Below, piece by piece: positions 21,482-49,631 of a stretch of DNA of 64,000 nt (the first letter of the stretch is position 1; the number at the start of each line of letters is the position of its first letter). Position numbers and translations under genes: made by a program. Source of the DNA: an uncultured Bacteroidales bacterium (GTDB lineage Bacteria > Bacteroidota > Bacteroidia > Bacteroidales > F082); assembly GCA_905236635.1 (NCBI GenBank), contig CAJOCJ010000003.1, positions 1 through 64,000 of the forward strand. Direction: 5' to 3'. The notes under the pieces are model-generated. The model was not told the origin of the DNA. It searched no databases and saw only the letters and a list, made by a program, of their open reading frames with translations.

Positions 21482-22572
21482 ATTCCCAAGAAAATGTCGC
21501 GTAAAAGATCTTGGTCAAGGTCTTTGTACGTCTCAATCCACTTCATATATTGCAGGAAATCTTCTTTCTGCTTCTCGGTATAATGGCTTGCGTATTTGTC
21601 TGATTCGCTGCGTAAGTCGTTGGCAATGAAATTGTTAGGCATCGACATATATCCTGCGCTGATGCGTTCGTCCATCAGCTTGGCGATGTTGTTGAAGTAA
21701 TCGCCCGGATTGCTGTCCATCCTTCGAAGGTCGTCTTCTGTGACAGGCTCGCAGATATGGAAATGCACATGTCCTTTCGGCTGCATGATGCCAGTGAGGA
21801 TGCTGTTGAGGTCCTCTCCTGGGCGTTTCTCATAACGTCCGTTGACCTTTGTAGCGTAAAGTTCCAGTGTTTTCAGCTTGTCGCACGACTCCCATTCATA
21901 AGAAACAGCCACCGGCACTATGTTTAGTTCGGCCAGTGATTTGACTTTGTCGTCTCTGCGGCTCATCCAAAACATCTTGATGATGGCAGGGTCGGTGGCG
22001 TCGATGCCGTCCTTGGTACGACCGTTACGTTGCGCTATCCACACAGACTCTTTTTCTTCCGTGATAACGTGGCGCATATACTCAGACGTATGCATCAGGT
22101 TGTTGTAAAACTCCATCCTGTTGCCTCCGCGTTCGATGCGGAACATCTTGTTGGCCTTACCGAAATCGACGACAAACGGGTGCTCCATAAGGTTGCTGCC
22201 AAAGGTGATCTGGCAGGTGTTGTGACCGCCTCCGATATACAGTATATACTGCAGAAACATCGCGTCAAGCACAATGTCACGATGGTTAGAGACAAACAGA
22301 TAAGGCTTCTTCTCCTTGATGTTTTCCAAGCCTGACCAATCAAATTTTGTGGTGGTCTTTTTTGCCAGAATCTCTATGACTTCCTTTAAAAATCCCACTT
22401 GTAACTCATAGATATTCTTGATGTTACGAAGCTTGTTGCGTAATATTTCCGGATCCGTGCCAGGCATCAGGAAGTTCGCAATCGACGGTATCAGCTCGCT
22501 GTCGGCGATACGCTGCATGGCGGCCGGGAGCTCGTCGGCGTTGTAAGGTCTTATGTCGTCGAAATTAGCCAT
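21460..22572 (-). CDS. Lysophospholipid/glycerol-3-phosphate acyltransferase-like protein
   Basis: LFVSNHRDIVLDAMFLQ (NHxxxxD), FRIERGGNR, WIAQRNGRTKDG. Confidence 0.78.
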   Translation of the reverse strand: MANFDDIRPYNADELPAAMQRIADSELIPSIANFLMPGTDPEILRNKLRNIKNIYELQVGFLKEVIEILAKKTTTKFDWSGLENIKEKKPYLFVSNHRDIVLDAMFLQYILYIGGGHNTCQITFGSNLMEHPFVVDFGKANKMFRIERGGNRMEFYNNLMHTSEYMRHVITEEKESVWIAQRNGRTKDGIDATDPAIIKMFWMSRRDDKVKSLAELNIVPVAVSYEWESCDKLKTLELYATKVNGRYEKRPGEDLNSILTGIMQPKGHVHFHICEPVTEDDLRRMDSNPGDYFNNIAKLMDERISAGYMSMPNNFIANDLRSESDKYASHYTEKQKEDFLQYMKWIETYKDLDQDLLRDIFLGIYGNSVK

Positions 22573-23870
22573 TATTTGTTTCTTAAGTCGATAAATTTTA
22601 TGGGTTTACGGCTCTTTGCCGGATAGTTGATCTTCTGAATCTCCTCCACGGGATGCACCTCAATCTGCGGTGCCACTCTGATGCGTGAGCGGAAGCTGTC
22701 TTTGAGTTCTTTCACCACGTCGAATTCGGGCTGGTATTTCAAGCCTATCTTCACCACCACGTCATCGGTGCCGGCCTCGCTCTGTCTCACCTCAATGACA
22801 TAGTTTTCGACGTAGTCGGTGTTGTCCAAGACGTCGTTGATTGCAGGCGGATACAGCGTCGTGCCCTTGAGTTTTATCATGTTGTTTTTGCGTCCCACGA
22901 GAGGGGTGAGGCGATAGGAGTTGCGTCCGCATTTGCAGTGTTCGACAATCTTTGCGGCTATGTCGCCAGTGCGGAAACGCAGCAGAGGCATGCCCTCCAC
23001 GCCTAGTGTCGTCACCACTATCTCGCCAGGCTGTCCGTCGGGCACAGGAAGTCCGTCTTCGCCGATGATTTCAACTATGATGAGCTCTGGATGCACGTGA
23101 CCTCCTTGGCCGAACTCGCATTCCGAGAAGGTGGCACCCATCTCTGTCGATGAATATGTGGCAAACAGCTGCACATCCCATTTCTCCTTGATCTTTCGGC
23201 CAAGGAGGTTGAGGTCGAAGTTCTGGTCTCTCAAGCCTTCGCCTATGCCTATGATACGGCGTATGCTGCTATTTTTATAGTCGATGTTATGTTCTTCGGC
23301 GTATTGTATCAGCTTCAAGATGAATGACGGCACGCACATGATGGTGTCGGGTTGTATGCGACGTATGGTGTCCCACTGCAGCTCGGGGATGCCGTTGCCA
23401 ACACGTATGACGCCGGCGCCAAGCTCGCGGAGTCCAAGGAAATAGGCGAGTCCCGCCATGAAACGTTTGTCCAATGTGGTCATCAGCTGCACTATGTTGC
23501 CGGGCTTGACGCCGGCGCATTCAAACGACTTCTTCTCGTTGAACGCCAAGCGCTGCAGGTCTTTCTCGGTGCATCCGAAGGTGACAGGGTCGCCGAGAGT
23601 GCCTGAAGTGGTGATATAATCGATGACCTTCGCCTTGGGGCAGCATAAAAACTCGTCGTTGAAGAGCTGAAGGTCTTTCTTCTCGGTGAACGGAATCTTC
23701 ACCAAATCCTCGATATGACGGATCTTCTCGATGTTGATGCCGTAGCTCTTGAACATACGCTGATAGTAAGGCGAGTTGTTCTTCAGATATGTCAGCGCCT
23801 CATGGAGCAAACCCTCCTGAAACGTCTTTATCTCTTCTACTGATTTATATTCTATATCATTGATATTCAT
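22572..23870 (-). CDS. PaaK-like AMP-binding acyl-CoA/acyl-ACP ligase
   Basis: YITTSGTLGDPVTFG, YSSTEMGATFSEC, LLRFRTGDIA, phenylacetate-CoA ligase-like organisation. Confidence 0.85.
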   Translation of the reverse strand: MNINDIEYKSVEEIKTFQEGLLHEALTYLKNNSPYYQRMFKSYGINIEKIRHIEDLVKIPFTEKKDLQLFNDEFLCCPKAKVIDYITTSGTLGDPVTFGCTEKDLQRLAFNEKKSFECAGVKPGNIVQLMTTLDKRFMAGLAYFLGLRELGAGVIRVGNGIPELQWDTIRRIQPDTIMCVPSFILKLIQYAEEHNIDYKNSSIRRIIGIGEGLRDQNFDLNLLGRKIKEKWDVQLFATYSSTEMGATFSECEFGQGGHVHPELIIVEIIGEDGLPVPDGQPGEIVVTTLGVEGMPLLRFRTGDIAAKIVEHCKCGRNSYRLTPLVGRKNNMIKLKGTTLYPPAINDVLDNTDYVENYVIEVRQSEAGTDDVVVKIGLKYQPEFDVVKELKDSFRSRIRVAPQIEVHPVEEIQKINYPAKSRKPIKFIDLRNK

Positions 23871-25110: not shown

Positions 25111-26415
25111 CTATTGTACCCTTACATTAACATTTCGTTTGCTTCTGTCGACATCACGACCGAATGATTTATTTATCAATTTCCTGTCGCGAGGACGATA
25201 TGTGCCTTCTTCCATCTCGCGCAATGCCACGTTACAGAACAGTCTGAACATCTTTGATTCCTGCGTCTCACTGGCGTAGAAACTCTTCCAGGCGTAGTCG
25301 TAGAGGTCCTGCAACTTCTCTGGTGTCATGTTCTTCGGCTGATACACCACCTGGCCTGCATTATAATGATCCCAGTCGAAGTCGAAGATACGGCCTTGTC
25401 TGAGCAAATCGTCATGACCTTTGGTGTGTGGGAACGGTGCGAAGATGGTGAACTCCGCAAGGTCCAGATCTATCTCGCCGAGGAAGTCAATTAGTCGTTT
25501 AATGTCGTCTTCAGTCTGATTGTCAAGACCAAATAAAATGGTGCCTTCCACACCGATGCCATAGTCGTGGTAGCGTTTCACGCGTTCTTTGATGTAATCC
25601 GATGTGTCATAGACGGCCTGATAAACATACCAAGCACCTGCTTTTGCAGCCAGATCCAGCACTTCTGGGTCATCTTCTATTGTGTGGCTTATCCATTTTT
25701 TCTTCAACGGGGCGATGGCTGTGAACAACTCTTTCTCCCATTCTTTATTCTGTGCCAATGAGTTGTCGACGATAAACAGGCGGTTGTTGTCGATGCCTGC
25801 CATGTCTTCCACTACCTTATCGACTGGACGTGGGCGGAACTTACGCCCTCCAAGATACGAAACGGCGCAAGGGTAACAGCTGAAACGGCAGCCACGGCTC
25901 GCGTTGAATAAGTCGACCATCTGAACGCCTTTGTGGTTGTATAGCTCGCGTTTATACAGGTCGCGACGGCATGGCCCCACGCTCTCGATAGGAGGCTGGT
26001 TGCCCATGTAGTTGTAAATCTTCTTCAAACACCCGTTCTTCCAGTCAAGAATCACCTGCTCCGAACGACCTTCCGACTCACCCAAGAACACGCTATCGAC
26101 ATGATTTACCATCTCTTCTGCGTGAAGCATGGTGGAGATGCCTCCAGCGATCACCTTTTTGCCTCTTTTGTGATATTCGTCGGCGATAGCCCAGCCACGT
26201 TTTACCTGAGTGGTGAGCATCATCGAGAGGGCTACGAGATCGCATTCCTCGTCAAAATCAATGGCCTCGACATTCTCGTCGGTGAACGAGATGTCAACAT
26301 ATTCCGGCAATGTGGCGGCAAATGCAACTGGCCCGTGGGGAGGCAGATTGAACGTAGTCTGTCCCGGAAGTTTGTTCCATTTCGGGTAAATCAGTTTCAG
26401 CTTTATAGTTTCCAT
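25111..26415 (-). CDS. B12-binding domain-containing radical SAM protein
   Basis: N-terminal cobalamin-binding-like region (LVALSMMLTTQVKRGWAIADEYHKRGKKVIAGGISTMLHAEE) and radical SAM cluster motif CRFSCYPC (CxxxCxxC). Confidence 0.9.
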   Translation of the reverse strand: METIKLKLIYPKWNKLPGQTTFNLPPHGPVAFAATLPEYVDISFTDENVEAIDFDEECDLVALSMMLTTQVKRGWAIADEYHKRGKKVIAGGISTMLHAEEMVNHVDSVFLGESEGRSEQVILDWKNGCLKKIYNYMGNQPPIESVGPCRRDLYKRELYNHKGVQMVDLFNASRGCRFSCYPCAVSYLGGRKFRPRPVDKVVEDMAGIDNNRLFIVDNSLAQNKEWEKELFTAIAPLKKKWISHTIEDDPEVLDLAAKAGAWYVYQAVYDTSDYIKERVKRYHDYGIGVEGTILFGLDNQTEDDIKRLIDFLGEIDLDLAEFTIFAPFPHTKGHDDLLRQGRIFDFDWDHYNAGQVVYQPKNMTPEKLQDLYDYAWKSFYASETQESKMFRLFCNVALREMEEGTYRPRDRKLINKSFGRDVDRSKRNVNVRVQ

Positions 26416-26468: not shown

Positions 26469-29432
26469 TTAAACTTTTTTATTGATTTTTCTAACAATTT
26501 CATTATGACCAACAATGGCTTCGGCAGTCTCAATGGCTGTTATCGATACACCGCAGAAACCATGTATGTTGACGTTCTGTCCGGTAAGGTAAAGGTTTTT
26601 AACCTTAGTGAATACTGACATCTGTGAAAGCATGAGGTTGTTGCTGTCTTTCTGGAAGCCGTAGTTCGAACCATACTTGTTGCCATAGAAATCGCGTATG
26701 GTAAGAGGGGAGGAGGCAAACGAGAACTCAATGGCGTCGCGGATTTCCGGATAGATATTTTCAACGAGATCTAACAGTTTTTCTGTCATCTGCCGTTTCC
26801 ATATCTCATACTCCTCGCCACGATGTCCGGTCATAGTATTTCCCCATTGTTTCACCTGTTCAAACTCCATCGGACTTATGATAATCATTGTATCCGCAAA
26901 TGCACCTTGATTTGTAACTGGCGGCGTCACACTCATAAACTGATTTGGCCAATCCATTTGATTATCAATGTAATAGCACGGATGGTTGATGTATTTGAAA
27001 GTGTTTTTCTTGAATTTTATATAAACTTTAAAACTCGAGACCGACTCTGGAACTGAATGAATCCTTTTCTTAAAAGCAGTCGAAAATGCATCTTCAGAAA
27101 TGACTTTCAACAGCACATCAGGATGCACGTCGGAGATGTAATGGTCGGCATGATAACTGTTGCCATTTTTAGTTAAAACATCTGTAACTAAATGATTATC
27201 AACATTTATTTTGACAACTTCCTCATTCGCTAAAACCTTTCCGCCTCCGTTCTCTATCACTTCTTTCAACAGATCGGCCATCTGCTGACTGCCATCGACA
27301 AACTGGAAAGTGCCGTTGATATGCAGAACACTCAAAAGAGCATTAAAAAATGCCGGAGTCATGTCTTCCACACCACCGAAAAGCGGACTTAAATACACCA
27401 ATAATCTCTTTAACTTTGGATTTTGTATGTATTTGTTAATCAAGATGTTATATGGTTTCAAAAAATCTTCGCTAAGTTTGGCAAAATTTGGTTCGGATGA
27501 GCTTTCACGAAGATAATAAAGGTCTTCCTCTTGGGACAACTCAAAGAGTTTTTCAATGTAATTCCTAATATTTTCAGCCTCTTCAGGGAATATATCTGAA
27601 AGATAATTTATCAGGTTTTCTTTTCCTTTAGGGAGATGATATGTCGCATTATCGTCAGCGATAGTAACTTCGTCACATGAATCGGCATCGGTCGGCAAGA
27701 GGTGTAATTTTTTCGTAATACCAAGATAATCAAATATTTGCTTGAGATTGCCGCCTTCGTTGAAACCTCCGAAGATGTGCATTCCTGTCGCAAAACTAAC
27801 CCCATGACGTTTGAAGGTCTGCAATCCGCCTCCGATTATGGCGTTCTTCTCCAAAACCGTCACCTTGTATCCTTCTTTCGAGAGAATCGCACCTGTAACA
27901 AGTCCGCCCAGACCGCCACCGATGACTAATACCGACTTCTTGTTAGCGTCTATGATTTGTTTTTTAATGACTTGTTCACCAATTAGTTGAGAGCAGACAG
28001 TCATCGTTCCTACCAGCACTCCCAACATACCGTGTGAGTTGATGTTTTGACCGACCAAGAAGAGATTTGGCACTTTTGTCCTAAAGGATACACGTCCTGC
28101 AATGCCTTTGTTCACGTCTTTGGCAAGTCCGTATATTGACCCATCGGGAGTGGAGGTGTAGTCGCGATAGGTGAGAGGTGTGGCGGCATGATAATCGGCT
28201 ATTGTGTCGCGTAATCCAGGGAAATCTTTCTCGACAGAATCCAAGAGTCGCTCTGCCATCTCGTGCTTGAAATGCTCATAATCAGCACCTCTGTTGCCGA
28301 TACTAGTGTCTTTCCATCTCTTTAAAGCGTCTATCGACATATATGAAAGAATCACGCCGCTTTTTGCGAATTTAGGACTTTTCTCATGGCAATAGTGCAT
28401 ATAAAGATAACCGGTAGGCCATTTCTCATCAACGATTCCACTCATCTCCCATGGCGTAACTGATTGAAAACCATAGAAATTGGAGTTGAGATAAGGCATG
28501 GCCTCATCCTTGAAACGAAGATAGAGCGAGAATACGGAGTTGGTGTTGCCGATGTCTCTAATTCTTGTCTTATAAGCTTCGTTGAAGACTGTATCGTCAA
28601 CAATATCAATGACTTGCTTCGGATTGATGTCAGATATGACTACGTCGGCAGGATAAAAACTGCCGTTTGCGGTCATGACGCCTTTCGCCATCTTGTTTTC
28701 GATGACTATTTTAGTCACCTTCTGCCGTGTCAGCACTCTTCCGCCATAATGTAAAAGCCTGTCATTCAATGCCTTGGCTATGGTGTCGCTGCCTCCTACA
28801 ATTCTATAAGCGCCGTTGTTGTAGAAATCGAAGATAAAGGCGTGGACCGCAAACGGCGTCTTGTCTTTCTCAGCAGAATATAGCGAAAGATTACCGACCA
28901 ACACATTTCTTAGTAGCGGATCGGTGATGGTATTATCAATTATCTCATTTAAACTCTTGAATAACAATTCGTTACTCTGGAAATAGCTGTCGTCATCAAG
29001 GAGTTTCAAATCTCTAAATGGCGATAATTCTGCCACCTGTTCGACTAGTTCGCAATAATGTTCCAAATTCTTGCGCTGATCGGGGAAACGCTCCGAAAAA
29101 TGCTCAATGAAAGCCTCGCGACCATTAGGGAATGCGAACTTTTCACTATTCAAGGAAACGATGTCGTATGCATTTTCATCGAGGCGGTTGACTTCTATCT
29201 TATCTTTGATTTCCAAATAGTTAAGATAATTAGAAAGCACCTTGCCGTCGTCAAGACTGCCGATGAAATGCATGCCGGTCTCAAACTTCATACCATCACG
29301 CTGGAAGCACTGCAAACAGCCACCGATTTGGCCCGCCTGCTCCAAGATAGTGACGTCATAGCCGTTTTTTGCCAAGATGACGCCAGTGGAGAGTCCACCC
29401 AAACCGCTTCCTATGATGATACATTTTTTCAT
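26469..29432 (-). CDS. Tandem-domain CrtI/retinol-saturase-like FAD-dependent oxidoreductase
   Basis: Two full-length homologous halves, starting KKCIIIGSGLGGLSTGVILAKNGYDVTILEQ and KKSVLVIGGGLGGLVTGAILSKEGYKVTVLEK. Each has GGxLQTFKRxGxxFxTGMHxxGG and a C-terminal NLxLxGQNxNxHGxxGV motif. Confidence 0.92.
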   Translation of the reverse strand: MKKCIIIGSGLGGLSTGVILAKNGYDVTILEQAGQIGGCLQCFQRDGMKFETGMHFIGSLDDGKVLSNYLNYLEIKDKIEVNRLDENAYDIVSLNSEKFAFPNGREAFIEHFSERFPDQRKNLEHYCELVEQVAELSPFRDLKLLDDDSYFQSNELLFKSLNEIIDNTITDPLLRNVLVGNLSLYSAEKDKTPFAVHAFIFDFYNNGAYRIVGGSDTIAKALNDRLLHYGGRVLTRQKVTKIVIENKMAKGVMTANGSFYPADVVISDINPKQVIDIVDDTVFNEAYKTRIRDIGNTNSVFSLYLRFKDEAMPYLNSNFYGFQSVTPWEMSGIVDEKWPTGYLYMHYCHEKSPKFAKSGVILSYMSIDALKRWKDTSIGNRGADYEHFKHEMAERLLDSVEKDFPGLRDTIADYHAATPLTYRDYTSTPDGSIYGLAKDVNKGIAGRVSFRTKVPNLFLVGQNINSHGMLGVLVGTMTVCSQLIGEQVIKKQIIDANKKSVLVIGGGLGGLVTGAILSKEGYKVTVLEKNAIIGGGLQTFKRHGVSFATGMHIFGGFNEGGNLKQIFDYLGITKKLHLLPTDADSCDEVTIADDNATYHLPKGKENLINYLSDIFPEEAENIRNYIEKLFELSQEEDLYYLRESSSEPNFAKLSEDFLKPYNILINKYIQNPKLKRLLVYLSPLFGGVEDMTPAFFNALLSVLHINGTFQFVDGSQQMADLLKEVIENGGGKVLANEEVVKINVDNHLVTDVLTKNGNSYHADHYISDVHPDVLLKVISEDAFSTAFKKRIHSVPESVSSFKVYIKFKKNTFKYINHPCYYIDNQMDWPNQFMSVTPPVTNQGAFADTMIIISPMEFEQVKQWGNTMTGHRGEEYEIWKRQMTEKLLDLVENIYPEIRDAIEFSFASSPLTIRDFYGNKYGSNYGFQKDSNNLMLSQMSVFTKVKNLYLTGQNVNIHGFCGVSITAIETAEAIVGHNEIVRKINKKV

Positions 29433-32400
29433 TTTATAAAAGATTGATTATCAATTAAATAATCATATTTTGTTGCAATACTATCGTCATTTACAAAATG
29501 TAAATTATCTGGAATATAACTACAATGAGATGCAATCAAATACTTGTCTTCATCAGCTTCAAAAGCGTAAATCTGAGTGTCGCGATGCACCAAAGCAAGC
29601 GTCCATGCCAATTCTCCATAACCACTATTTGTTATAGCTATAGTGTTGTAATTCAATGAGTTGATTTCTTCGGAATGAGTTTTAATTATCTTTAAGTTTG
29701 TTCGGACAACACGTTCAACAGCAGAGCCTTTGTATATGTATTTGTACTTAACTAAAGGCATGACATAATCCACGTCTTCGCGTTGCTTCCTTATCTCTTC
29801 AAGATGGTTGATGTATAATTCATGGAAATGCGACCTTAACTCTTTGGCATCCATGGACTTGACCTCTGTCGCCGACATTCTATGACCCACTTCGACATAG
29901 AGATTTCCTTCTCTTAAGACGAAGTCATTCTTAGGCATCACATCGCGTGCGCCATGGATAAACACCGGCAAGATGTCGACATTCAATGCTTGTGCCAACT
30001 GAAAAGCGCCTTTGTGGAAACGTAATATCTCGCAGGTCACCGAACGTGTGCCTTCTGGGAAGACGACGACGGAATAGCCTCTGTTTACTAGACTCTGCAG
30101 ACGCTCGACGTTCTTGTCATAGCCATCCGAGACAGGGTAGAACTCGGCAAAACGGATGATGACGCCGTAAATCGGATTTTTCCACACCCAGTCGGCGGTC
30201 AATAGCACAACTTTGGGATTCAGCATCATGACACATAGTAGGTCGAGGTGCGACTGGTGGTTTGCTATGATAACAGCAGGCTTGTCGAAGGTCTCGCCAT
30301 ATTTGTTTTCAAGATGGAACTTCACGCCAGGCAACAACTTCAGGGCTATACGCATGAAACCGCATATCATCTGGTGATAACGATAGCGTTTGTTCTTCGT
30401 CCTGGGCCATAACACAATGTAGATCAACGTCAAAGGTGTGACGACGACGAAGGCTGCTATGAAAAAGACGATTAACATCAATGCTGTGTAAAGCATGCGT
30501 TTCAGAGTCAATGGCACCTCGCGAAGCTTGCCTTTCTTCTTGGTGAGCCAGCCGAAAACAATAGGAGGGAGGTAACACGCCATAAACACGACAGTAGCCA
30601 TACCGATGATTGCTACCTCTGCCAACGACCGCATCGCAGGATGTTTCGCGAAAATCAGCGTGCCGATGCCGATAAACATCAGGATTCCCGACAAAATCAC
30701 GCTGTTGCGATAGTTTTTCAGCATTTTCTTGCCGTAAGCGTACTCGTAGAGCAGCCCTTCGGTTATAAATATGGTGTAATCGTCGCCCTGACCGAAGATG
30801 AACGTCGCCAAGATGATGTTCACGATATTGAACTTTATAGAGCTTAAGTTCATGATTCCCAATATCCACATCCATCCGACAGTGAGCGGCAAAAATGCGA
30901 GAATCGACAGCTCCAGGCGGCCGAATGAGAGACATAGGAAGAAGAACACCACTATGCTGCAGACATATAAAATATAATCAAAGTCATCGGACAATGCCGA
31001 AACGAGGTTATTGCCCACGTCGCTGATGCTGAAAGCGTATACACTCCCTGAACCAATCATATTTCTTATTTGCCCCTTCATCTCTTCCGCCTCGTCGGTT
31101 GGAACGCGGACGAAGTTGACTATCCTAGTCAAAGTGTCGTGCTGTAGAGTATAAGTCTTGCAAAGCTCAGTCAAGACTTCCATCTCATCTGCCGACTTTG
31201 TAACATATTGTTTGTCAATATTTTGTGTAAAAACATTAAATGCGTCAACAGTAAAGCCGACCTTAACGGCTTCGTTTCTGACATCCTCAACTATTCCTGC
31301 GTGGTTATTCCAGAAGTCAGTCCATTTTTCGAGCGATTGCTGCTGTTTTTCAATTGATGGCAGCAGTCCGTTAGGGCCGGAAACTGTCATTAAACCATCT
31401 GAATTATCCAAGAGATCTACGATACTCTCGTTTTGCTCTAAAGCCTTTTCAAAATCGGCGTTTTCCGAAACCAAATAAATCAAATCGGTCTCGCCATCTT
31501 TCTGCATAGACTCGCTCAACAACGCCAGGTCTTCTTTCTGTTGCGCCGTCATGTAATTGATGTTGTGCAAGTCGGCATCGAATGAGGTGCCGCCACTGAA
31601 GTAGCTGAGTATCAATGTGATAATGACTATAGGCCAGAAGGCAGATAGCTTGATTTTACGCCATCTTTCGGAAGGCTCCTTGCCGCTGTCGACGAATAGT
31701 TTGTGTGTTTTCTTCGGTGAGACTGCAAACAATGGCAGGAATACCATCACGAAAAGTATCGTTCCGACGAGCATCAGCGCGCCGAAGAGTCCCAGGTCGT
31801 GCATCGCCTCGGCTTTCACGAAGATCAGACAGGCAAAGGCCGCCACTGTGGTGATATTGCCGATGACAAGAGGCTGGACCACGTCTTTCAGCGCCTCGCG
31901 TTTGTTGGGCTCCTGCTTGATATGGTCGAGATAATGCAAAGGATAATTCACGGCGATGCCGACAATCACTGAGCCTATGCCCACTACGATGATGGAGATG
32001 CTGGTCTTGAACAGAGCTATCACCGCCAATGCGAAAACCCAGCCGAATAGGATGGAGATGCCAAGCCACAAGAGATTGCGTTTTCTCGCCATAGTAAACA
32101 TCAAGATGCTGAAAATCAGCACTATGGCGAGTGATATGGAGAGGAAACTGTCGTTTTTCACCCTCTGTGCGTTAGTGACCGCGATAGTCGGTGCTCCAAC
32201 AGCAGAGATCTTCACATTTTGATGGTCTTGCATCGTCATTTTGATAACATCATCCATCAAAGTGACTAGAACTGCGTTGTTTTTGGTGTCGCTACCTGAG
32301 AAAGGCGAGGAGAAAAACGCAAACGCCTTGTCCGCCGCCTCGTTGAAGAGATACTCATCTTCAACGCGATAACCCTCGGCGGCGTTCAGCGCCGTGAGTC

Positions 32401-32947
32401 GTTGAAGGGTAGGCGAATACAGATTCAAAGGGTCCGATTTCACGCCTTCAATGACGACGCTAGCCGTCGGAAACGCCAGCATTCGCCTGATGTTCTGCAT
32501 GCATGTCGCCACATAGTCGGGCTCTGCAAGCAATGAGTCCATACGCCTGTAGTCTTTGTCAGTTAAGAACAAAGGCTGGTTTTCTCTTATGAAATCGATG
32601 GCATCGAATACCAAGCCGTCGTCAACTTTACAACGTAAGTCGTTGACCAACAGCGCTGTATCTAAGTCATGCCAGTTTCTCTCGAAGTCATCGACAGTGT
32701 TCATCAGCTCATCCATGTCGTCGCCCGAGAAGATGATAGTAATCTGTCCTTGGTTGCTTAAATCGTCGTAAACCGAGGTATAACGCTCCTTCTCAGGATC
32801 TGATGGCAAAAAATCTGCTATGTTCTCCTTATAATTCAATTTCAATGCCGAGACAACGCATAAGGCGCTGATTATCAATAATAAAACTATTGATAAAACC
32901 TTCTTCCCAGCCAAGAAATCATATATTCTAAGGAAAAACTTAGTCAT
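29429..32947 (-). CDS. MMPL/RND-type exporter fused to a lysophospholipid acyltransferase domain, with a C-terminal Rossmann-like tail
   Basis: MMPL-type TM bundles (SVIVGIAVNYPLHYLDHIK; FGQGDDYTIFITEGLLYEY); LPLAT motifs NHQSHLD and FPEGTRS; C-terminal AITNSGYGELAWTLALVHRDTQIYAFEADEDKYLIAS. Confidence 0.88.
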   Translation of the reverse strand: MTKFFLRIYDFLAGKKVLSIVLLLIISALCVVSALKLNYKENIADFLPSDPEKERYTSVYDDLSNQGQITIIFSGDDMDELMNTVDDFERNWHDLDTALLVNDLRCKVDDGLVFDAIDFIRENQPLFLTDKDYRRMDSLLAEPDYVATCMQNIRRMLAFPTASVVIEGVKSDPLNLYSPTLQRLTALNAAEGYRVEDEYLFNEAADKAFAFFSSPFSGSDTKNNAVLVTLMDDVIKMTMQDHQNVKISAVGAPTIAVTNAQRVKNDSFLSISLAIVLIFSILMFTMARKRNLLWLGISILFGWVFALAVIALFKTSISIIVVGIGSVIVGIAVNYPLHYLDHIKQEPNKREALKDVVQPLVIGNITTVAAFACLIFVKAEAMHDLGLFGALMLVGTILFVMVFLPLFAVSPKKTHKLFVDSGKEPSERWRKIKLSAFWPIVIITLILSYFSGGTSFDADLHNINYMTAQQKEDLALLSESMQKDGETDLIYLVSENADFEKALEQNESIVDLLDNSDGLMTVSGPNGLLPSIEKQQQSLEKWTDFWNNHAGIVEDVRNEAVKVGFTVDAFNVFTQNIDKQYVTKSADEMEVLTELCKTYTLQHDTLTRIVNFVRVPTDEAEEMKGQIRNMIGSGSVYAFSISDVGNNLVSALSDDFDYILYVCSIVVFFFLCLSFGRLELSILAFLPLTVGWMWILGIMNLSSIKFNIVNIILATFIFGQGDDYTIFITEGLLYEYAYGKKMLKNYRNSVILSGILMFIGIGTLIFAKHPAMRSLAEVAIIGMATVVFMACYLPPIVFGWLTKKKGKLREVPLTLKRMLYTALMLIVFFIAAFVVVTPLTLIYIVLWPRTKNKRYRYHQMICGFMRIALKLLPGVKFHLENKYGETFDKPAVIIANHQSHLDLLCVMMLNPKVVLLTADWVWKNPIYGVIIRFAEFYPVSDGYDKNVERLQSLVNRGYSVVVFPEGTRSVTCEILRFHKGAFQLAQALNVDILPVFIHGARDVMPKNDFVLREGNLYVEVGHRMSATEVKSMDAKELRSHFHELYINHLEEIRKQREDVDYVMPLVKYKYIYKGSAVERVVRTNLKIIKTHSEEINSLNYNTIAITNSGYGELAWTLALVHRDTQIYAFEADEDKYLIASHCSYIPDNLHFVNDDSIATKYDYLIDNQSFIK

Positions 32948-34990: not shown

Positions 34991-37243
34991 TTATTTTTCT
35001 AATAGTGTTAATGAATAGTCTTTTAAGTCTGAATTATTGAGAACCAATATTCTTGTTATTTTGTCATTGCTGATGTCCGATGGGTTGACAAACAAATGTG
35101 TCGGTATCATACCTGCCTTCAAACACTGTGCCGCCACATAAATTCCCATACCCGATGATGTAAAGCTTTCGCCGAATAAGTGCTTGTATTTCAATAGCTT
35201 GGCATCTCCGAATAATTCTCTACATTCTTCGATATATGCCATATCACTTTCATGGTTTCCGCTGATTCCCGTCAACACATAGTCGATTTCCGATATTTTT
35301 TTATTTATTTTTGTAAAAAATGTGCTGACGTTCTGCTTCAAGCTTGCGTTGCTTTGCTGATGCAACATCGTGAATCCCAATAGCTTACAAAGCTTTCTTT
35401 CCGGCCTGCTTCCTAATACCACCGATACTGCTGCTTCTCCGCACATCTCGTCGTCCCGACCCATCACTCCACCTTTTTTAAGGATGTTGTAAAACGTCGG
35501 AGTCAGCTCATCGTGACCGCCAACAAGGGCTGAGTCTATCTTGCCGAGTCGCATCTGCAGCACCGCATCCTGCAAGGCGCTGTCGAAAGATATGCCTTTG
35601 TGCGCGTAGGTCACATTATAGCCGTGGTTCTTCGTCTGGATGGCCACCAACGAGCTGATGGTGTTGTGTGTCGACTGCATGAAATACGTTGGGCTCAACA
35701 TCTGTTCGCCTTCTTTAGATAGCGCGTCGAGGAAGATCTCAGTGTTCTCAATACATCCGTATCCTGTTCCGGTGATTATCGCATCTACCGACGACAGCCC
35801 TGATGCGCTTATTGCTTCTTTCGACGTGGCGATGGCACGTTTCAGTATCTTTCCCATACGCCTTGCCTCGATAGGTGAGACGTAATCCTTGAAACTCGGG
35901 TCGATGGAACGGTTGAAAGGCTCTTGATATTCAATTGGTTGCGTCATCCAGTCCTCGCTGAGAGGCTGTTGCACGGATATCTGCTTGGCGGAAAGGACGT
36001 AAATAGGCCTTTGTTCAGGTGATTGTTGGTCAAGCCAGCAATGACGGTCAGAACCTGCGCGTGAAATAAGCATCGACGAGTCGTTGCCTCCAAAGCCGAA
36101 GGCGTTGCACAAGACGTGCTTCAACTCCTTCTTGACTATCTGATGCACTGGCACTATGCCGTCGTCCATGGGCTGTGACCAATTCAGATTTGCCGGCAGG
36201 AACCCGTGTTGCAATGCGAGGATGCAGAACACTGCCTCGATAGAACCTGACGCGCTGGTGGTGTGTCCGGTGAATGGCTTCGTCGACGACATCGGAGGCA
36301 CTTCCTCTCCGAAAAGCCTCTTCACCGCTTGGCTCTCGCTCAAATCGTTGTTGGGCGTGCCTGTCCCATGTGCGTTGATATAGTCTATCGCTTCTTTCTG
36401 AATGCCAGCAAGCTCTAACGCCTCTTTCATCGCCCGGAAGGCTCCCTCGCCGTCGGGTGACGACGCCGTCTGATGGAAGGCATCGCAGGCGTTGCCGTAA
36501 CCTGAGAGTATCGCCTGGGCCTTCACCCCGCGCCGTTTTGCGCTTTCTTCGGTCTCAAGGACGAGATAAGCAGCGCCTTCGCCGAGGTTCAAGCCGGCAC
36601 GTGTGGCATCAAATGGCCTGCAGGGCTTGGTGTCGAGGATCATCAACGAGTTGAAGCCGTTGAGGTGGAACTTGGTGATGCATTCACTGCCTCCGACTAC
36701 CACGATGTCGGCCTCGCCACAACGTAACATGTTGGCGCCCAAGATGATAGCGTTGGCTGCCGATGAGCATGCCGTCGATAACGTGGTGATGAAAGCGAAC
36801 TTCCCAAAGTGCTCGGCGGTCATCTCGGAGCAGTTGCCACAGTCGTGAACGGCGATGTATTCCTTGTGCTTGTCGTTGTTGACATAGTCGAGATAAAACT
36901 GCTCGCTCATGTCCATGCCGCCGACCGTCGTACCCGAGATGAAACCGATGTTTGGTATCATCTCCGATGTGATTTCCGCTTCTTTCAGAGCCTCGTCAAG
37001 GGCTATCATCCCCATCAGGGCAGTGCGTGTGGTGATGGCGTCGTCGCTGATATTCAGCAACTTACGCATCTCCTCGTCGTTCATCTTGACCTCGCCAACA
37101 GGAAACTCCTTGTGTTCGGTCTTGAGATAAGCAAGCTCGCCAACGCCAGAGCGGTTGTGCAGCAAGGCATCCAATGTCTCCGCCTTGTTGTTGCCAATCG
37201 CCGAGATGACGCCACAACCCGTTATCAGAATGGGACCCGTCAT
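34991..37243 (-). CDS. Fused beta-ketoacyl synthase and chain-length-factor-like protein
   Basis: N-terminal KS with STACSSAANAI (Cys), INAHGTGTPNND (His), GHTTSASGSIEA (His). The second KS-like half has no Cys or His at equivalent sites (VTYAHKGISFDSAL; LTGISGNHESDM). Confidence 0.88.
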   Translation of the reverse strand: MTGPILITGCGVISAIGNNKAETLDALLHNRSGVGELAYLKTEHKEFPVGEVKMNDEEMRKLLNISDDAITTRTALMGMIALDEALKEAEITSEMIPNIGFISGTTVGGMDMSEQFYLDYVNNDKHKEYIAVHDCGNCSEMTAEHFGKFAFITTLSTACSSAANAIILGANMLRCGEADIVVVGGSECITKFHLNGFNSLMILDTKPCRPFDATRAGLNLGEGAAYLVLETEESAKRRGVKAQAILSGYGNACDAFHQTASSPDGEGAFRAMKEALELAGIQKEAIDYINAHGTGTPNNDLSESQAVKRLFGEEVPPMSSTKPFTGHTTSASGSIEAVFCILALQHGFLPANLNWSQPMDDGIVPVHQIVKKELKHVLCNAFGFGGNDSSMLISRAGSDRHCWLDQQSPEQRPIYVLSAKQISVQQPLSEDWMTQPIEYQEPFNRSIDPSFKDYVSPIEARRMGKILKRAIATSKEAISASGLSSVDAIITGTGYGCIENTEIFLDALSKEGEQMLSPTYFMQSTHNTISSLVAIQTKNHGYNVTYAHKGISFDSALQDAVLQMRLGKIDSALVGGHDELTPTFYNILKKGGVMGRDDEMCGEAAVSVVLGSRPERKLCKLLGFTMLHQQSNASLKQNVSTFFTKINKKISEIDYVLTGISGNHESDMAYIEECRELFGDAKLLKYKHLFGESFTSSGMGIYVAAQCLKAGMIPTHLFVNPSDISNDKITRILVLNNSDLKDYSLTLLEK

Positions 37244-40816: not shown

Positions 40817-41914
40817 CTACACTTTCTTACAGACCATGATGCTATGTCCGTGTCCCAGACCGTCGTGAATCGTCTCGACCGCAAGACCTGCTTTTTTCAC
40901 AAGGCGTTCCATGTCATCTGAATGATACATCTTGCTGTTACCATTAGCTAATGCTGTGAAATACAACGACGTCATCGTCAATGCGAAGGCGGCGGCAGGG
41001 TAGTTCTGACGGTCCCAGAATGTCTCCATGATACACAGGCGGCTGTCTTTGTCCATAATCTTTGCCGCTCTCGACACTATGCTTAAAATCTCGTCTTCGC
41101 CAAAGCAATCGAGGAACTGGCTCATCCAGATAACGTCATAGTGTTTGTTGGTCGGAAACTGCTGTTTGTCGTCAAGTAAGTTGATGCCGTAGCCGTCGAT
41201 GCGCTCGAAGCCTTTCTTGCCATTGGTGAATCTCTTCATCATCTCGAGCTGTTGCGGCAGGTCCATGATGGTGACGTTGACATCATCATCAAAATCGACG
41301 CAGCGCAGTGCCCAACGACCAGTGTTTCCGCCTACATCGAGCAATGTCTTCGGCTTGTTTCCAAACACAATCTGCAGAGCTTGGTCGAAGGAGTGGTCGG
41401 AATAGAAGTGGTCGAATCCGAACCAGCTCTTCTGAACCTGTTCCGGCAGTTGTGAGAGGCCTTCGTAAATCGTCGGCCAGCTGCCGAAATGCTCTAAACC
41501 TGAAGGTTTTCCTTCTTTCAGTGCCTCTTCGAGTTTAAACCAACCCTCGTAGTTGACATCGTGGTTGAAGTCGATGTTCACGCGGATGGCAGGGTCGGTG
41601 AGGAGGAAAAAACCTGTCTTCGACATGGCGAATCGGTCGGTGTCTTTGTCTAAGATCACCAAACCGATACACAGCGAGCCTTCCATCAATACCTTGACGG
41701 CATAGTCGGAAAGACCTGTCTTTGCTGCTATCTCTGCCATCGCCATGCCATTCTCGCTGTCGCGAAGCATGTCAAGGATGCCGAATTTTATCATCAGCCT
41801 GCCGACCTGGAAAATGATAGGGCCGAAAGCGATGTAATATGCCATTTCCTGAGCTTCACCTGCTCTCTTGTGTTCTTTGGTATATGCCTTTTCTAGACCT
41901 GGAAACAATTTCAT
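40817..41914 (-). CDS. SAM-dependent methyltransferase, Methyltransf_2/O-methyltransferase-like
   Basis: N-terminal winged-helix dimerisation-like region; LLDVGGNTGRWALRCVDFDDDVNVTIMDLPQQL motif I. Confidence 0.87.
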   Translation of the reverse strand: MKLFPGLEKAYTKEHKRAGEAQEMAYYIAFGPIIFQVGRLMIKFGILDMLRDSENGMAMAEIAAKTGLSDYAVKVLMEGSLCIGLVILDKDTDRFAMSKTGFFLLTDPAIRVNIDFNHDVNYEGWFKLEEALKEGKPSGLEHFGSWPTIYEGLSQLPEQVQKSWFGFDHFYSDHSFDQALQIVFGNKPKTLLDVGGNTGRWALRCVDFDDDVNVTIMDLPQQLEMMKRFTNGKKGFERIDGYGINLLDDKQQFPTNKHYDVIWMSQFLDCFGEDEILSIVSRAAKIMDKDSRLCIMETFWDRQNYPAAAFALTMTSLYFTALANGNSKMYHSDDMERLVKKAGLAVETIHDGLGHGHSIMVCKKV

Positions 41915-43153: not shown

Positions 43154-43882
43154 TTATGTGTATAACCCTCCGTTGATTGAAATAGCCTGTCCTGTTATGT
43201 ACGATGCCTCGTCTGATGCCAGGAACGACACCAGGCTCGCCACTTCTTCAGGTTTTCCGAAGCGTCCCATCGGGATGAGCTTCTTTAACTCGGCCTCGTT
43301 GAGCTCTTTAGTCATATCTGTCGCGATGAATCCTGGTGCTATGGCGTTGACGGTGACTTTACGCGCCGCCACCTCCTGTGCGAGGGCTTTTGTCGCCCCG
43401 ATGAGCGCTGCCTTGGCGGCGGAGTAGTTGGCTTGTCCCGGCAACCCTTTGATTCCTGACAGCGACGCCATATTGATGATACGTCCGTTACGATGCATCA
43501 TCATGTCTTTTAACAGGCGGCGCGTAATATAAAAGAATCCGTTGAGGGTGGTGTCCAAGACCTTGTTCCATTCCTCGTCCTGCATGAATACCATGAGGTT
43601 ATCTTTGCGGATGCCTGCGTTGTTGACCAACACTGAGATGTAGTCGTCGGGATGCGCGGCTTGCCATGCCTCGAGGGCGTGCTCGATGGCCTGTGGGTCC
43701 GACACGTCGAAAGGCATGAGCTCGCCAAAGCCGCCGGCTTCCTGCACCTGCTTAAGGGTGTCTTCAGCGGCCTCCCTGTTCGACTGATAGTTGATGATCA
43801 CCGCAAAGCCGTCTTTGGCGAGCCGCAAGGCTACCGCCTTGCCCAAGCCGCGCGAGGCACCAGTGATGAGAGCGTATTTCAT
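43154..43882 (-). CDS. 3-oxoacyl-ACP reductase (FabG-like SDR)
   Basis: ALITGASRGLGKAVALRLA, LVNNAGIRKDNL, GLPGQANYSAAKAALIGATKALAQE. Confidence 0.95.
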   Translation of the reverse strand: MKYALITGASRGLGKAVALRLAKDGFAVIINYQSNREAAEDTLKQVQEAGGFGELMPFDVSDPQAIEHALEAWQAAHPDDYISVLVNNAGIRKDNLMVFMQDEEWNKVLDTTLNGFFYITRRLLKDMMMHRNGRIINMASLSGIKGLPGQANYSAAKAALIGATKALAQEVAARKVTVNAIAPGFIATDMTKELNEAELKKLIPMGRFGKPEEVASLVSFLASDEASYITGQAISINGGLYT

Positions 43883-45420
43883 TATCTTAAGTTCAATTTA
43901 TTGGTTTTCAAATAGTTTTCAACGTTGGCGATGTCCTTGTAGAACGGCGTGTCTTCGATGAAGAGCGGCACCATCTCGCGGATCTTGTCGTAAATCTTGC
44001 GTGAGGTAGGGCAGAGCTTGTCGGCAATTTTGAGGCAGTCTGTCGCCTGTGCCAAGGCGATGTATTGTATCGCCATCACCTGGAAACAGTTCTCGACCAC
44101 CTGCTTGCATATCAAAGCGGTGTTGGTGCCCATGCTCACGATGTCTTGGTTGTCGTTGTTGTTAGGGATGCTGTGCACGTAGTTAGGCATCGCCAGCGTC
44201 TGACACTCTGCCGTCGTTGAGGTGGCGGTGAACTGACAGGCCTGCATGCCGTAGTTCAAGCCGAGCGTCCCGAGGTTGAGGAACGGCGGCAAGATGCCGT
44301 TGATACGGTCGTGGAACAGGTAGTTGAGCTGACGTTCTGCCGTCATGGCAAGACGTACCAATGCTATCTTCACCTTGTCTTCCTCAAGCGAGATATAGTC
44401 GCCATGGAAGTTGCCGCCATGATATACGTATTGTGTGTCAGGGTCGACGATAGGGTTGTCGCATGCCGAGTTGAGCTCGTCTTCAATGATCTGACGTGCG
44501 TTTTGCAGGGTGTCATAGATAGGACCGAGTATCTGAGGGGTGCAACGTAACGAGTAGTAAGCTTGCACCTTATGCTCAAACACCTTGACATCTGCATGTC
44601 CGTAGTCAAACAGCTCATGGGCGCGTTTCTTGAGGCACTGCGAGCCCTCTGATAGCTCACGCAGACGACGTGCAATCACCTGCTGCCCTTCATGGCGGCG
44701 GCAATTGTTCTCTCCTTCCGACATGTAGTCGTCAAACGAAGAGGCGATCTCGTTCATCCATACTGCTGCCAAAGTCGCCCAGTCGAGCAGGGTCTCCGCA
44801 TGAAGCTGATTCACCACGCTGATGCCGGTCATCACCGAGGTGCCATTTGTTATCGAGAGGCCTTCGCGGATATGCATCTTCAGTGGGGTGATGCCTAATT
44901 CCTTCATCACGTCGGCCGACTTACGCCATTCGCCTTTGTAATGTACCTCGCCTTCACCGATGAGGCATAACGCGATGTGTGCCAACTGTACCAAATCGCC
45001 GCTCGCCCCAACACTTCCGTGCATCGGGATAAACGGATAGATCTCGTTGTTGATGAACGAAATTAACAGTTTTGCGACGTCTGCATGCACTCCGGAACGG
45101 CATTGCAAGACCGTGCCAAGGCGTGCTATCATGGCCGACTTCACATACACATCGGCGAGCGGCTCGCCAGCACCAGTGGCATGGCTGCGGATGATATTAT
45201 ATTGTAAATCAGTGAGATAACGGTCGTCGACACGCCATTGTGCCATCGGACCGAACCCGGTGTTGATACCGTAAATCACCTTCTCGGCAGCAAATTTCTC
45301 CAAGAACTTGTAGCAGGCATCGACACGTGCCATCCAATCGTCGGAGACATCAATTTTTTCGCCTGAGTACAGGACTTTTTCCACTTCGCCAAGAGTTATC
45401 CTATCTTTGAAAGTTATCAT
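43882..45420 (-). CDS. Aromatic amino acid ammonia-lyase (HAL/TAL family, FjTAL-like)
   Basis: MIO motif GSVGASGDLVQLAHIALCLIGEGEV; INTGFGPMAQ; QYNIIRSHATGAGEP; YHGGNFHGDYISLEEDK; TATSTTAECQTLAMPNYVHSIPNNNDNQDIVSMGTN. Start trimmed to MITFKDRITLGEV. Confidence 0.93.
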   Translation of the reverse strand: MITFKDRITLGEVEKVLYSGEKIDVSDDWMARVDACYKFLEKFAAEKVIYGINTGFGPMAQWRVDDRYLTDLQYNIIRSHATGAGEPLADVYVKSAMIARLGTVLQCRSGVHADVAKLLISFINNEIYPFIPMHGSVGASGDLVQLAHIALCLIGEGEVHYKGEWRKSADVMKELGITPLKMHIREGLSITNGTSVMTGISVVNQLHAETLLDWATLAAVWMNEIASSFDDYMSEGENNCRRHEGQQVIARRLRELSEGSQCLKKRAHELFDYGHADVKVFEHKVQAYYSLRCTPQILGPIYDTLQNARQIIEDELNSACDNPIVDPDTQYVYHGGNFHGDYISLEEDKVKIALVRLAMTAERQLNYLFHDRINGILPPFLNLGTLGLNYGMQACQFTATSTTAECQTLAMPNYVHSIPNNNDNQDIVSMGTNTALICKQVVENCFQVMAIQYIALAQATDCLKIADKLCPTSRKIYDKIREMVPLFIEDTPFYKDIANVENYLKTNKLNLR

Positions 45421-45455
45421 AATAACACTCCTAAAAACAATATTCTTTAAATTTG

Positions 45456-45463
45456 CAAATATA
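45456..45463 (-). promoter_or_regulatory. Candidate promoter -7 box (TATATTTG) for the aryl polyene operon
   Basis: Minus-strand TATATTTGC about 36 nt upstream of the ammonia-lyase start. Confidence 0.6.
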
Positions 45464-45510
45464 CGAAAAATATCAACTCTATACAAAAATAATAAAAATT
45501 AATAAAGAAA

Positions 45511-45991: not shown

Positions 45992-48004
45992 TTAATGAAT
46001 AATTGAAATTTTTTCTATACAAAAATCTTCTATACCATTGATTTTCAATATATAAAGACCGCTATTCAAAAATGAGATGTCAATGGTGTTTGAAGTGTAT
46101 GTTGCAATAATACGACCAGATAAATCAATAACATCCACCGATACTATTTCTTTTTCAGATATGATATTGATTATGCCGTCGCTTGGATTTGGATAAACAA
46201 CGACATAATTGGCATAAATCTCATCGACATTATCGTAATACGTGCTGAAAGTCCAATTTTGCGGTAAGCTGTTATCTAAGTCTAAATCAATGAGTTGCAG
46301 ATATGGACCATAGCCATCGGCTTGTGTAGGCCACGGCCTGCTGTCGGAATAGCACACCTCATCGATGACATTGCCCCAGGCATCGGCTATGACGATATTC
46401 TCCGATTTGTTGGAGAGCTTTCTGTCATATTCTCCAAATGGAGTTTTATTATATACCTGTACGTAAGTCGTTGAGTCAGAACATAATACCAATGAATCGC
46501 GGGCTGCAAGACGAGATCCAGCGGGGAAGTTGTAGGTGATTCCCAATTCTCGCAGGTAAAAGCCTGTCAAGTCGACGTCCTCATCGCCGTTGTTGTTGAT
46601 CTGGATAAATTCGAGTTTGTTCCCGTTGATGGTGTCTAAATCGGCCGGATGATAATGGATCTTTGATATGACCAACGGTGGCAAATCGATATCGTCACAG
46701 TTGTTGTACGACCCGATGTGGCTATTTAACCAATTGTATCTGTTCTGTAACCATGTCTTCATAGCCTGCACCTCCGACGTGTGCTGCCCCATCCTGTTCC
46801 AACGTTGGTTGTCACGTGCCACGCCTTCGCTAATGAGCTCGTCAATCTCGTCCATTCTGGCACATATTGTATTGTAATTCAAAGGATTACCAACGGCAGT
46901 GACTTCAAACCAACGCTTCGCCAGATAGCATCTGAACTCGTCGGTGTCGAATAAGTCTTTCCAGAATTTCGGTCCGACATTATCGTCGTTGTCAAATTGC
47001 CACACATCGTAACGGCTCCTGCTTCCGAACTCGTCGTGGCCGTAAGCGAGGTTGTAGTCCCAAATCGGACCGGCACGCAACTTGCCTTTTCTGTCTTTAT
47101 GGAAGAAAGTGCTTAATTCATAGACATCGACATTCGACGATACTTCGCCCATTATCATAAAATCTACGAAAGATGGTATGTCGATGACGCTGGGAATGCC
47201 GTTCTCAATGGAAGTGTTATGACTGCCAGCCTTGTCGGCAAGGTCGAAAAACACATTTTTAATGTAGTTGTGCTGTGCATCGGTGACGTCATCTGGCTTG
47301 GGATAATGATGAATGAAAGCGGCGTAATTGGGCCACCACCAACCTCCATATTCTTCCATTTGCCATGCTACCGGATCGTTGCCGGTAGTCTTGTCAGCCT
47401 TGGTGATGTAACCGCCGGAGACTTCGGGATAACTGTTGCATGTCTCATCCATCTTCTCGATGTTGACACGCCCTTCGTCTGCTTTGATCTTTTCCATGAA
47501 GACGTATAATCCCTTATAATCGCCGTTAATGACAACCTCGCAATACACTCGTCTGGAAGCGTATTGCCCAAGTTTTTCTGACAATTCGTATGACAATACG
47601 TCACGCATTCCTGTCTGGTCGAACGCAAGAGAGTTCAGCACCCAGTCGTTTTCCCGTGGCATGCCGAGAATGCTGACGTTGTTGTTGGTGACATTGTCGG
47701 CTTGCAGCGTCTCAAGACCATAAGGTTTCTTGGGCAAGTCTTGCGACGAGCTGCCTCGTCTCTCAATGCCTATTCTTCCATTATAATTGAGAAATTCGGG
47801 ATTATTGGCGTCGGTCAGATAGTTGCGCGACCCGTCCTGATGCCATATTATCTTCATGGTAGCCAAAACCTTAGGCTCGTCAGGGATTGTCACGCCTCCG
47901 TCGGTGTCGATGATGACAATAGGCAGGTTGCTGTCGGTGAAAGTCTGTGCCAACGACAGCAGAGGCGCGATAATCAGGGATAATATGACCAGGATCCTTC
48001 TCAT
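45992..48004 (-). CDS. CotH kinase-family protein with lamin-tail-like region and T9SS sorting tail
   Basis: CotH-like YCEVVINGDYKGLYVFMEKIKADEGRVNIEKMD, GPIWDYNLAYGH; LTD-like region; C-terminal VVVYPNPSDGIINI...LNSGLYILKI. Confidence 0.88.
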   Translation of the reverse strand: MRRILVILSLIIAPLLSLAQTFTDSNLPIVIIDTDGGVTIPDEPKVLATMKIIWHQDGSRNYLTDANNPEFLNYNGRIGIERRGSSSQDLPKKPYGLETLQADNVTNNNVSILGMPRENDWVLNSLAFDQTGMRDVLSYELSEKLGQYASRRVYCEVVINGDYKGLYVFMEKIKADEGRVNIEKMDETCNSYPEVSGGYITKADKTTGNDPVAWQMEEYGGWWWPNYAAFIHHYPKPDDVTDAQHNYIKNVFFDLADKAGSHNTSIENGIPSVIDIPSFVDFMIMGEVSSNVDVYELSTFFHKDRKGKLRAGPIWDYNLAYGHDEFGSRSRYDVWQFDNDDNVGPKFWKDLFDTDEFRCYLAKRWFEVTAVGNPLNYNTICARMDEIDELISEGVARDNQRWNRMGQHTSEVQAMKTWLQNRYNWLNSHIGSYNNCDDIDLPPLVISKIHYHPADLDTINGNKLEFIQINNNGDEDVDLTGFYLRELGITYNFPAGSRLAARDSLVLCSDSTTYVQVYNKTPFGEYDRKLSNKSENIVIADAWGNVIDEVCYSDSRPWPTQADGYGPYLQLIDLDLDNSLPQNWTFSTYYDNVDEIYANYVVVYPNPSDGIINIISEKEIVSVDVIDLSGRIIATYTSNTIDISFLNSGLYILKINGIEDFCIEKISIIH

Positions 48005-49011
48005 TATTCTTCTGGGAACTCAGGAACTTCCAAGACTTTTAGCGCTTCTGTAAAGTATTGTGCAGCAGTGAGTTGCGGATAGTTCAAGAGCGCTGACAGT
48101 GCATTCTGGTGTCTTGCACGGATTGGAACCATCTGCTCGTCAATCTCCATAGCCACAGGGAGCTGCTCGTCGAGACGCACCTTACAGTTTTTGATGACGT
48201 TTTCACGGATGATAGGCGCCACCTCTTCATAATAGCTTAAAAGAATCTTGTTGTGTGCCTCGTCGTCGTCAACAGTCTTTGCCAGTCTGTCGGCATATTT
48301 CGCATAGATGGTTCTGCACTGGGCATCGGCATCGTCGTTGTTGGCGGTTATCTTATCGTCAAAAGCCGACCAGCGGTCGATGATAGGCTGTAGCGGCTCC
48401 ATCTCTTCGCCAAGTTCTGCTGCCTGTTCAAGCATTACAGCCTCGGCACGGCCTTCCTGATAATGAGTCTGCAGATATGCCTCCTGCTCCTCCTCGCTCA
48501 TTGTTGAGAGCATGTCGATCTCTTCTTTCGTGAGGCCTGTGTAAAGCTCGGCATTTTTATATGCTGCTTCCATGATCTGTGTGGAATCGGCACCCTGATA
48601 AGGAACGGTATAAACCTTGCCGGTGAGTTCTAATACCGACATCTGGAACTTCATCAGAGGGTTGGCAATCAGCTTGAGACCCTGTCCGTTAAGCTCTGCT
48701 TTTTTATAGCCGACCATCTGCTGTGCAGAAGGTATCTCAGGTAACATGCGCATCAGCGACTCATAGGTGAGAGGCTCGTCTGAATTGATCTCCTGAGGCT
48801 CGTAAATCGCTGGCTCCTCGCCGAAATCAATCTCGTTGACGATGGCTTCAGAAGCTTTTTCGGCCGCTTTTTCCGTTGCCTTTTCAATAATCTTCTCTTC
48901 TGTCTTCTTGGCTGCTTTTTTCGCCGCTTTGTCAAGGAAACCGCCTAACTGCGCATTGGCACTGAAGGTTCCGAAGATTATAGCTATCGATAGGATGATA
49001 AATCTCTTCAT
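48004..49011 (-). CDS. Hypothetical exported protein with Ala/Lys/Glu-rich helical N-terminus
   Basis: Signal peptide; KAAKKAAKKTEEKIIEKATEKAAEKASEAI. Confidence 0.65.
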   Translation of the reverse strand: MKRFIILSIAIIFGTFSANAQLGGFLDKAAKKAAKKTEEKIIEKATEKAAEKASEAIVNEIDFGEEPAIYEPQEINSDEPLTYESLMRMLPEIPSAQQMVGYKKAELNGQGLKLIANPLMKFQMSVLELTGKVYTVPYQGADSTQIMEAAYKNAELYTGLTKEEIDMLSTMSEEEQEAYLQTHYQEGRAEAVMLEQAAELGEEMEPLQPIIDRWSAFDDKITANNDDADAQCRTIYAKYADRLAKTVDDDEAHNKILLSYYEEVAPIIRENVIKNCKVRLDEQLPVAMEIDEQMVPIRARHQNALSALLNYPQLTAAQYFTEALKVLEVPEFPEE

Positions 49012-49028
49012 GGTTTTTAAAGTCTATT

Positions 49029-49619: not shown

Positions 49620-49631
49620 GGTATGATATTT

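Follow-up and report, generated by a model that had tools for sequence, protein, structure and literature searches.

The window, a stretch of 64,000 nucleotides from an uncultured Bacteroidales bacterium, carries on its minus strand a single open reading frame (26469–29432) that translates into 987 amino acids with zero internal stops. The encoded protein consists of two complete CrtI-type FAD oxidoreductase units in one open frame, and the features of this gene are as follows.

26469..29432, minus strand: fused two-unit FAD-dependent oxidoreductase, 987 aa, FlxV-position enzyme of a flexirubin-type aryl-polyene cluster (translation, Pfam, AlphaFold2, Foldseek)
27957..29432, minus strand: N unit, residues 1–492, the upstream-copy or 'first' paralogue (half-versus-half alignment and trees)
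26472..27956, minus strand: C unit, residues 493–987, the downstream-copy or 'second' paralogue (half-versus-half alignment and trees)
29394..29411, minus strand: predicted GxGxxG FAD-binding motif of the N unit, GSGLGG, residues 8–13 (sequence)
27903..27920, minus strand: predicted GxGxxG FAD-binding motif of the C unit, GGGLGG, residues 505–510 (sequence)
28029..28052, minus strand: predicted C-terminal flavin-site motif of the N unit, GQNINSHG, residues 461–468 (sequence and conserved columns)
26559..26582, minus strand: predicted C-terminal flavin-site motif of the C unit, GQNVNIHG, residues 951–958 (sequence and conserved columns)

Aligned with each other, residues 1–492 and 493–987 are 33% identical across 482 aligned positions (E 2e-92), far above chance. 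Pfam places PF01593 (Amino_oxidase) on two stretches of the protein, scoring 132.1 bits where the cut-off is 19.8, and NAD_binding_8 is matched twice, once per half. An AlphaFold2 model calculated from an alignment of 30 relatives (pLDDT 89.3, pTM 0.77) gives one fold twice, the helix and strand order of one unit being repeated along the chain. The first-pass annotation of this DNA had described two full oxidoreductase units, each with its own dinucleotide-binding and GQNxNxHG motifs, and had proposed both structure prediction and a split at about 27960/27945; all of this holds, the split falling a few residues from the joint at 27957/27956 used here. The ligand of the dinucleotide-binding motif is most likely FAD; CRTI uses FAD alone (PMC3382138).

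The top Foldseek match of the fused model is the gamma-carotenoid desaturase 4rep (TM 0.79 by target, E 4.6e-28), followed by 3ka7, 3nrn and 4dgk. This carotenoid-desaturase fold, the N-terminal GxGxxG in each unit and the PF01593 score above the gathering score place the protein in the CrtI-type superfamily (Amino_oxidase), as had been proposed. No carotenoid-enzyme NCBIfam model reaches its cut-off on the 987-residue protein; the sub-threshold matches are led by CrtD (TIGR02733, 277.5 against 549.7) and the carotenoid isomerase CRTISO (TIGR02730, 212.6 against 586.9), with CrtI (TIGR02734) at 181.6 against 238.1. A model dedicated to retinol saturase was not among the matches listed; the likeness to that enzyme comes from the first-pass annotation.

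Judged by its gene content, the run 21460–45486 on the minus strand is a flexirubin-type aryl-polyene cluster, in keeping with the first-pass placement of the oxidoreductase in a polyene cluster. Its principal genes besides the fused oxidoreductase are listed here.

43882..45486, minus strand: FlxA tyrosine ammonia-lyase homologue (NF053541, 833 bits against a cut-off of 700)
43154..43882, minus strand: FlxB ketoreductase homologue (NF053542, 412 bits against 340)
40817..41914, minus strand: FlxJ-family methyltransferase (NF053543, 592 bits against 560)
34991..37243, minus strand: two ketosynthase-like units in one 750-aa chain, separate genes in several relatives
29429..32947, minus strand: MMPL-type exporter fused to an acyltransferase, FlxU position, overlapping the oxidoreductase start by 4 bp (Pfam)
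25111..26415, minus strand: B12-binding radical SAM protein, downstream, unusually conserved
22572..23870, minus strand: FlxY 4-coumarate-CoA ligase homologue (NF053551, 704 bits against 520)

The FlxA, FlxB, FlxJ and FlxY models thus all score above their cut-offs in a single run that further holds carrier proteins (ACP), ketosynthases, a FabZ-like dehydratase, LolA and a glycosyltransferase. Neither the window genome nor the (nearly) complete genus members contain DarA or DarB homologues, queries from a Flavobacteriia-type cluster returning only short, weak FabH-like matches there and 55–64% homologues in two such control genomes. The product should therefore lack the dialkylresorcinol half and not be a true flexirubin, and DAR aromatisation is an unlikely substrate step given the absence of DarA and DarB. 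The ketosynthase-like pair is a second recurrent fusion in the cluster, found as two genes in L031, L036, L046, L047, L060 and L070 and fused in L032, L034, L035, L043, L045 and L072. Beside the cluster, at 45992–50717, two proteins carry a type IX secretion tail, one of them a CotH-kinase/LTD protein.

In Persicobacter and Aureispira the annotated order is exporter/acyltransferase, NAD(P)/FAD oxidoreductase, C45 family protein and AMP-binding protein, and the same order of exporter, oxidoreductase, C45 protein and AMP ligase occurs in several other genomes of the phylum. The flxA-flxY cluster of Chitinophaga pinensis has the order FlxU-V-W-Y (PMC3992019), to which the present oxidoreductase is matched at the FlxV position by gene order alone and not by sequence. 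The published description of that cluster offers beta-keto reduction as a guess for FlxV (PMC3992019); our literature search returned no published reaction for any FlxV-position enzyme, and nothing relevant on fused CrtI pairs or on FAD oxidoreductases in flexirubin clusters.

Across 99 genomes of the window's genus, surveyed at a match threshold of E 1e-60, the complete fused gene is present in 23, with one more cut by a contig end. Only the C-type unit is found in 11 and only the N-type unit in one, about half have no match, and there are in addition one C-type match beginning at a contig edge and one fragment. None of the 11 C-only genomes or the N-only genome has a second copy elsewhere at E <= 1e-60, and in the nine single-unit loci inspected the unit occupies the usual cluster slot. 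The 22 complete fused genes of the genus other than that of the window are 63–88% identical to it, and the open fused frame recurs in three genomes of a second family, f138 (L060 and others); the genomes with the fused gene include an assembly of 8 contigs, and the linker is conserved.

In other Bacteroidales families (G060, G482, L076, L077 and most of L130–L149) the two units are separate adjacent genes, mostly within 15 nt or overlapping, and 19 of the 22 pairs inspected lie within 30 nt or overlap. The two genes of G482 are in frame and 3 nt apart with a single TAA between them, so that one stop loss can create the fusion. Flavobacteriia-type genomes have a single copy of the oxidoreductase. 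Apparent frames of about 1000 aa in G654, G872, G712 and G826, considered as independent fusions, are each two ORFs of about 410–500 aa. The fusion is not ubiquitous; the first-pass annotation had named ubiquity, along with a function unrelated to polyenes, as grounds for refutation.

Several neighbouring genes also vary among these loci. The radical SAM protein is 94–99% identical within the genus and 66–83% in other loci, while the adjacent oxidoreductase drops to 60–70%. Its gene is absent from five of nine single-unit loci and from none of 27 fused loci, which is a lead only, as the loci are related; in L073, the one locus with an N unit alone, the usual radical SAM place is taken by a protein of 438 aa that weakly matches a hydrolase (L073:11518–12834). 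The MMPL-acyltransferase of the fused-type loci L062, L066, L068 and L074 is strongly diverged from its sisters in L060, L064, L067 and L071 (branch 1.36), which suggests that the exporter gene was replaced in these four.

In phylogenetic trees of the halves the N unit falls among upstream copies and the C unit among downstream ones, and copies sort by position with 6–7 changes against 23 in shuffles. A recent duplication within the gene is rejected, since N and C each cluster with the separate genes of other families; the tree of the halves suggested by the first-pass annotation as a means of dating the duplication thus places the pair before the fusion, which appears as a later step taken in two families and probably arose when one stop codon was lost. 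A topology that fully separates the 28 upstream from the 28 downstream copies is not rejected (p-AU 0.30), so these data allow, without proving, one ancient duplication with conserved order. The single genes of Flavobacteriia-type genomes fall outside the N and C clades of the window.

The solo-C genes are scattered within the fused group, and their monophyly is rejected (p-AU 5.5e-69); together with the seven arrangement changes required by the tree of the neighbouring exporter gene, this excludes one single loss of the N unit. The simplest reading of the trees would be a single fusion, after which a unit was lost several times. Most solo-C genes begin with an N-like MKxC followed by the C-type GGGxGG, a pattern that L036 does not fit and that is only suggestive of in-frame deletion inside the fused gene. 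For the N unit the f138-type sequences branch outside those of the genus (p-AU 0.0036 against the alternative), and for the C unit they nest among them, a discordance that points to recombination between clusters and to halves that have not always been inherited as one. The fusion is a young, tidy variant, from which several close relatives have since dropped a half.

Both halves retain the conserved columns shared across the copies and the single genes, and median dN/dS is about 0.07 for N and 0.10 for C, indicating purifying selection; neither half looks degenerate on these grounds. Thirty-four columns are fixed differently between N and C, from which the two probably differ in substrate or bond, and the two units probably act on different bonds or intermediates.

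With moderate confidence we favour the reading that the gene encodes fused tandem FlxV-position paralogues of the CrtI/CrtD/CRTISO type with separate FAD sites, functioning in polyene isomerisation or saturation. Each unit would bind its own FAD as a separate active site and would act during or close to export, on the aryl polyene as such or while it is bound to a carrier or lipid. The likely reaction would be reduced-flavin-dependent cis-trans isomerisation or double-bond saturation rather than oxygen-driven desaturation, with a different bond or intermediate for each unit, and the fusion would mainly keep the two enzymes, already linked as genes, close together and in equal amounts. Isomerisation or saturation is preferred because the ketoreductase and dehydratase can make double bonds, because of the anaerobic chemistry of CRTI, and because of where the relatives come from. 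Under nitrogen CRTI has no dehydrogenase activity, its dehydrogenation needing O2 or a quinone as acceptor, and with reduced FAD it isomerises carotenes anaerobically (PMC3382138); the named relatives are mostly gut and rumen assemblies, from which we take these bacteria to be anaerobes. Counting against this reading, the ketosynthase, ketoreductase and dehydratase could in principle make the polyene without the oxidoreductase, the carotenoid-enzyme NCBIfam models all stay below their cut-offs, the equation with FlxV is by gene order, and the literature searched gives no reaction for an enzyme at that position. We put forward more tentatively, as a possibility that we would not yet favour, that an ancient CrtI-type pair of conserved order would constitute a two-site anaerobic polyene isomerase/saturase, joined into one chain in two families, of which either site can be shed to alter the pigment.

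That the two units work only together, as an obligate internal heterodimer locked by the fusion and represented in unfused form by the adjacent gene pair, is unlikely. The fixed-order tandem pairs are widespread in the order and both halves are constrained, as such a reading expects; however, the genus members with one unit have no second copy at E <= 1e-60, the nine such loci inspected have that unit in its usual slot, and Flavobacteriia-type genomes manage with one copy. The obligate pseudo-dimer raised by the first-pass annotation is contradicted by these close relatives, unless they make no pigment. We consider it improbable, too, that the oxidoreductase works on the pigment's lipid or acyl partner, instead of the polyene, while the pigment is being anchored or exported. 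The MMPL-acyltransferase is its most constant neighbour, the exporter–oxidoreductase junction is kept in most loci examined, and in G060 the exporter and both oxidoreductases are on a different contig from the ammonia-lyase; yet G060 retains the ammonia-lyase, in G449 the oxidoreductase stands with ketosynthase, carrier and reductase genes but no exporter, and the closest characterised relatives are known to act on polyenes.

There is little probability that the units desaturate the polyene in two successive steps, with electrons passed to O2 or quinone; in the wider form given by the first-pass annotation, two sequential redox steps may take place. The nearest folds are those of carotenoid desaturases and CRTI accepts either oxidant (PMC3382138), but the cluster's own ketoreductase and dehydratase are already able to place the double bonds, and CRTI dehydrogenation halts without an acceptor (PMC3382138), in a group whose relatives come from gut and rumen. 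An assembly or sequencing artefact that joined two genes can be dismissed even though the window genome is a fragmented assembly of 50 contigs and the units are separate genes in other families, as the open fusion with its conserved linker recurs in more than 20 other genomes and the missed stop or frameshift that might have undone the first-pass claim was not found.

The arrangement is real and conserved, both the enzyme family and the kind of cluster are known ones, and the literature search gave no earlier report of it. Flexirubin-type clusters throughout the Bacteroidota examined retain the FlxV-position oxidoreductase, with no reaction assigned to it in the literature searched, and the genus offers a natural experiment in which fused, N-only and C-only versions occur in otherwise similar clusters. 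Comparison of their pigments would show the role of each unit and whether a CrtI-type enzyme works on a non-isoprenoid polyene without oxygen.

Among known systems, CrtI, CrtD and CRTISO (4dgk, 4rep) have in common with the present protein the fold, at the TM of 0.79 by target for 4rep, and the FAD-binding Rossmann motif, and their known members act on polyenes at membranes. They differ in having just 15–20% identity in the structure alignment and equivalog scores that are all below cut-off, and no isoprenoid genes are seen in the present cluster. The FlxV-position oxidoreductases of Persicobacter (WP_338399410.1), Aureispira (WP_264793641.1) and, by gene order, C. pinensis likewise follow the MMPL/acyltransferase exporter near the FlxY ligase, and the Persicobacter and Aureispira proteins are about 33–37% identical to each half with conserved columns in common; the FlxV-position enzymes are, however, single units of about 500 aa beside a C45 protein, which is absent from the window cluster, and the Flavobacteriia-type genomes tested have DarA and DarB, unlike the window genome. 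The tandem two-gene pairs of other Bacteroidales share with the window the paralogues, their order and the kind of cluster, and have in two reading frames what is here in one.
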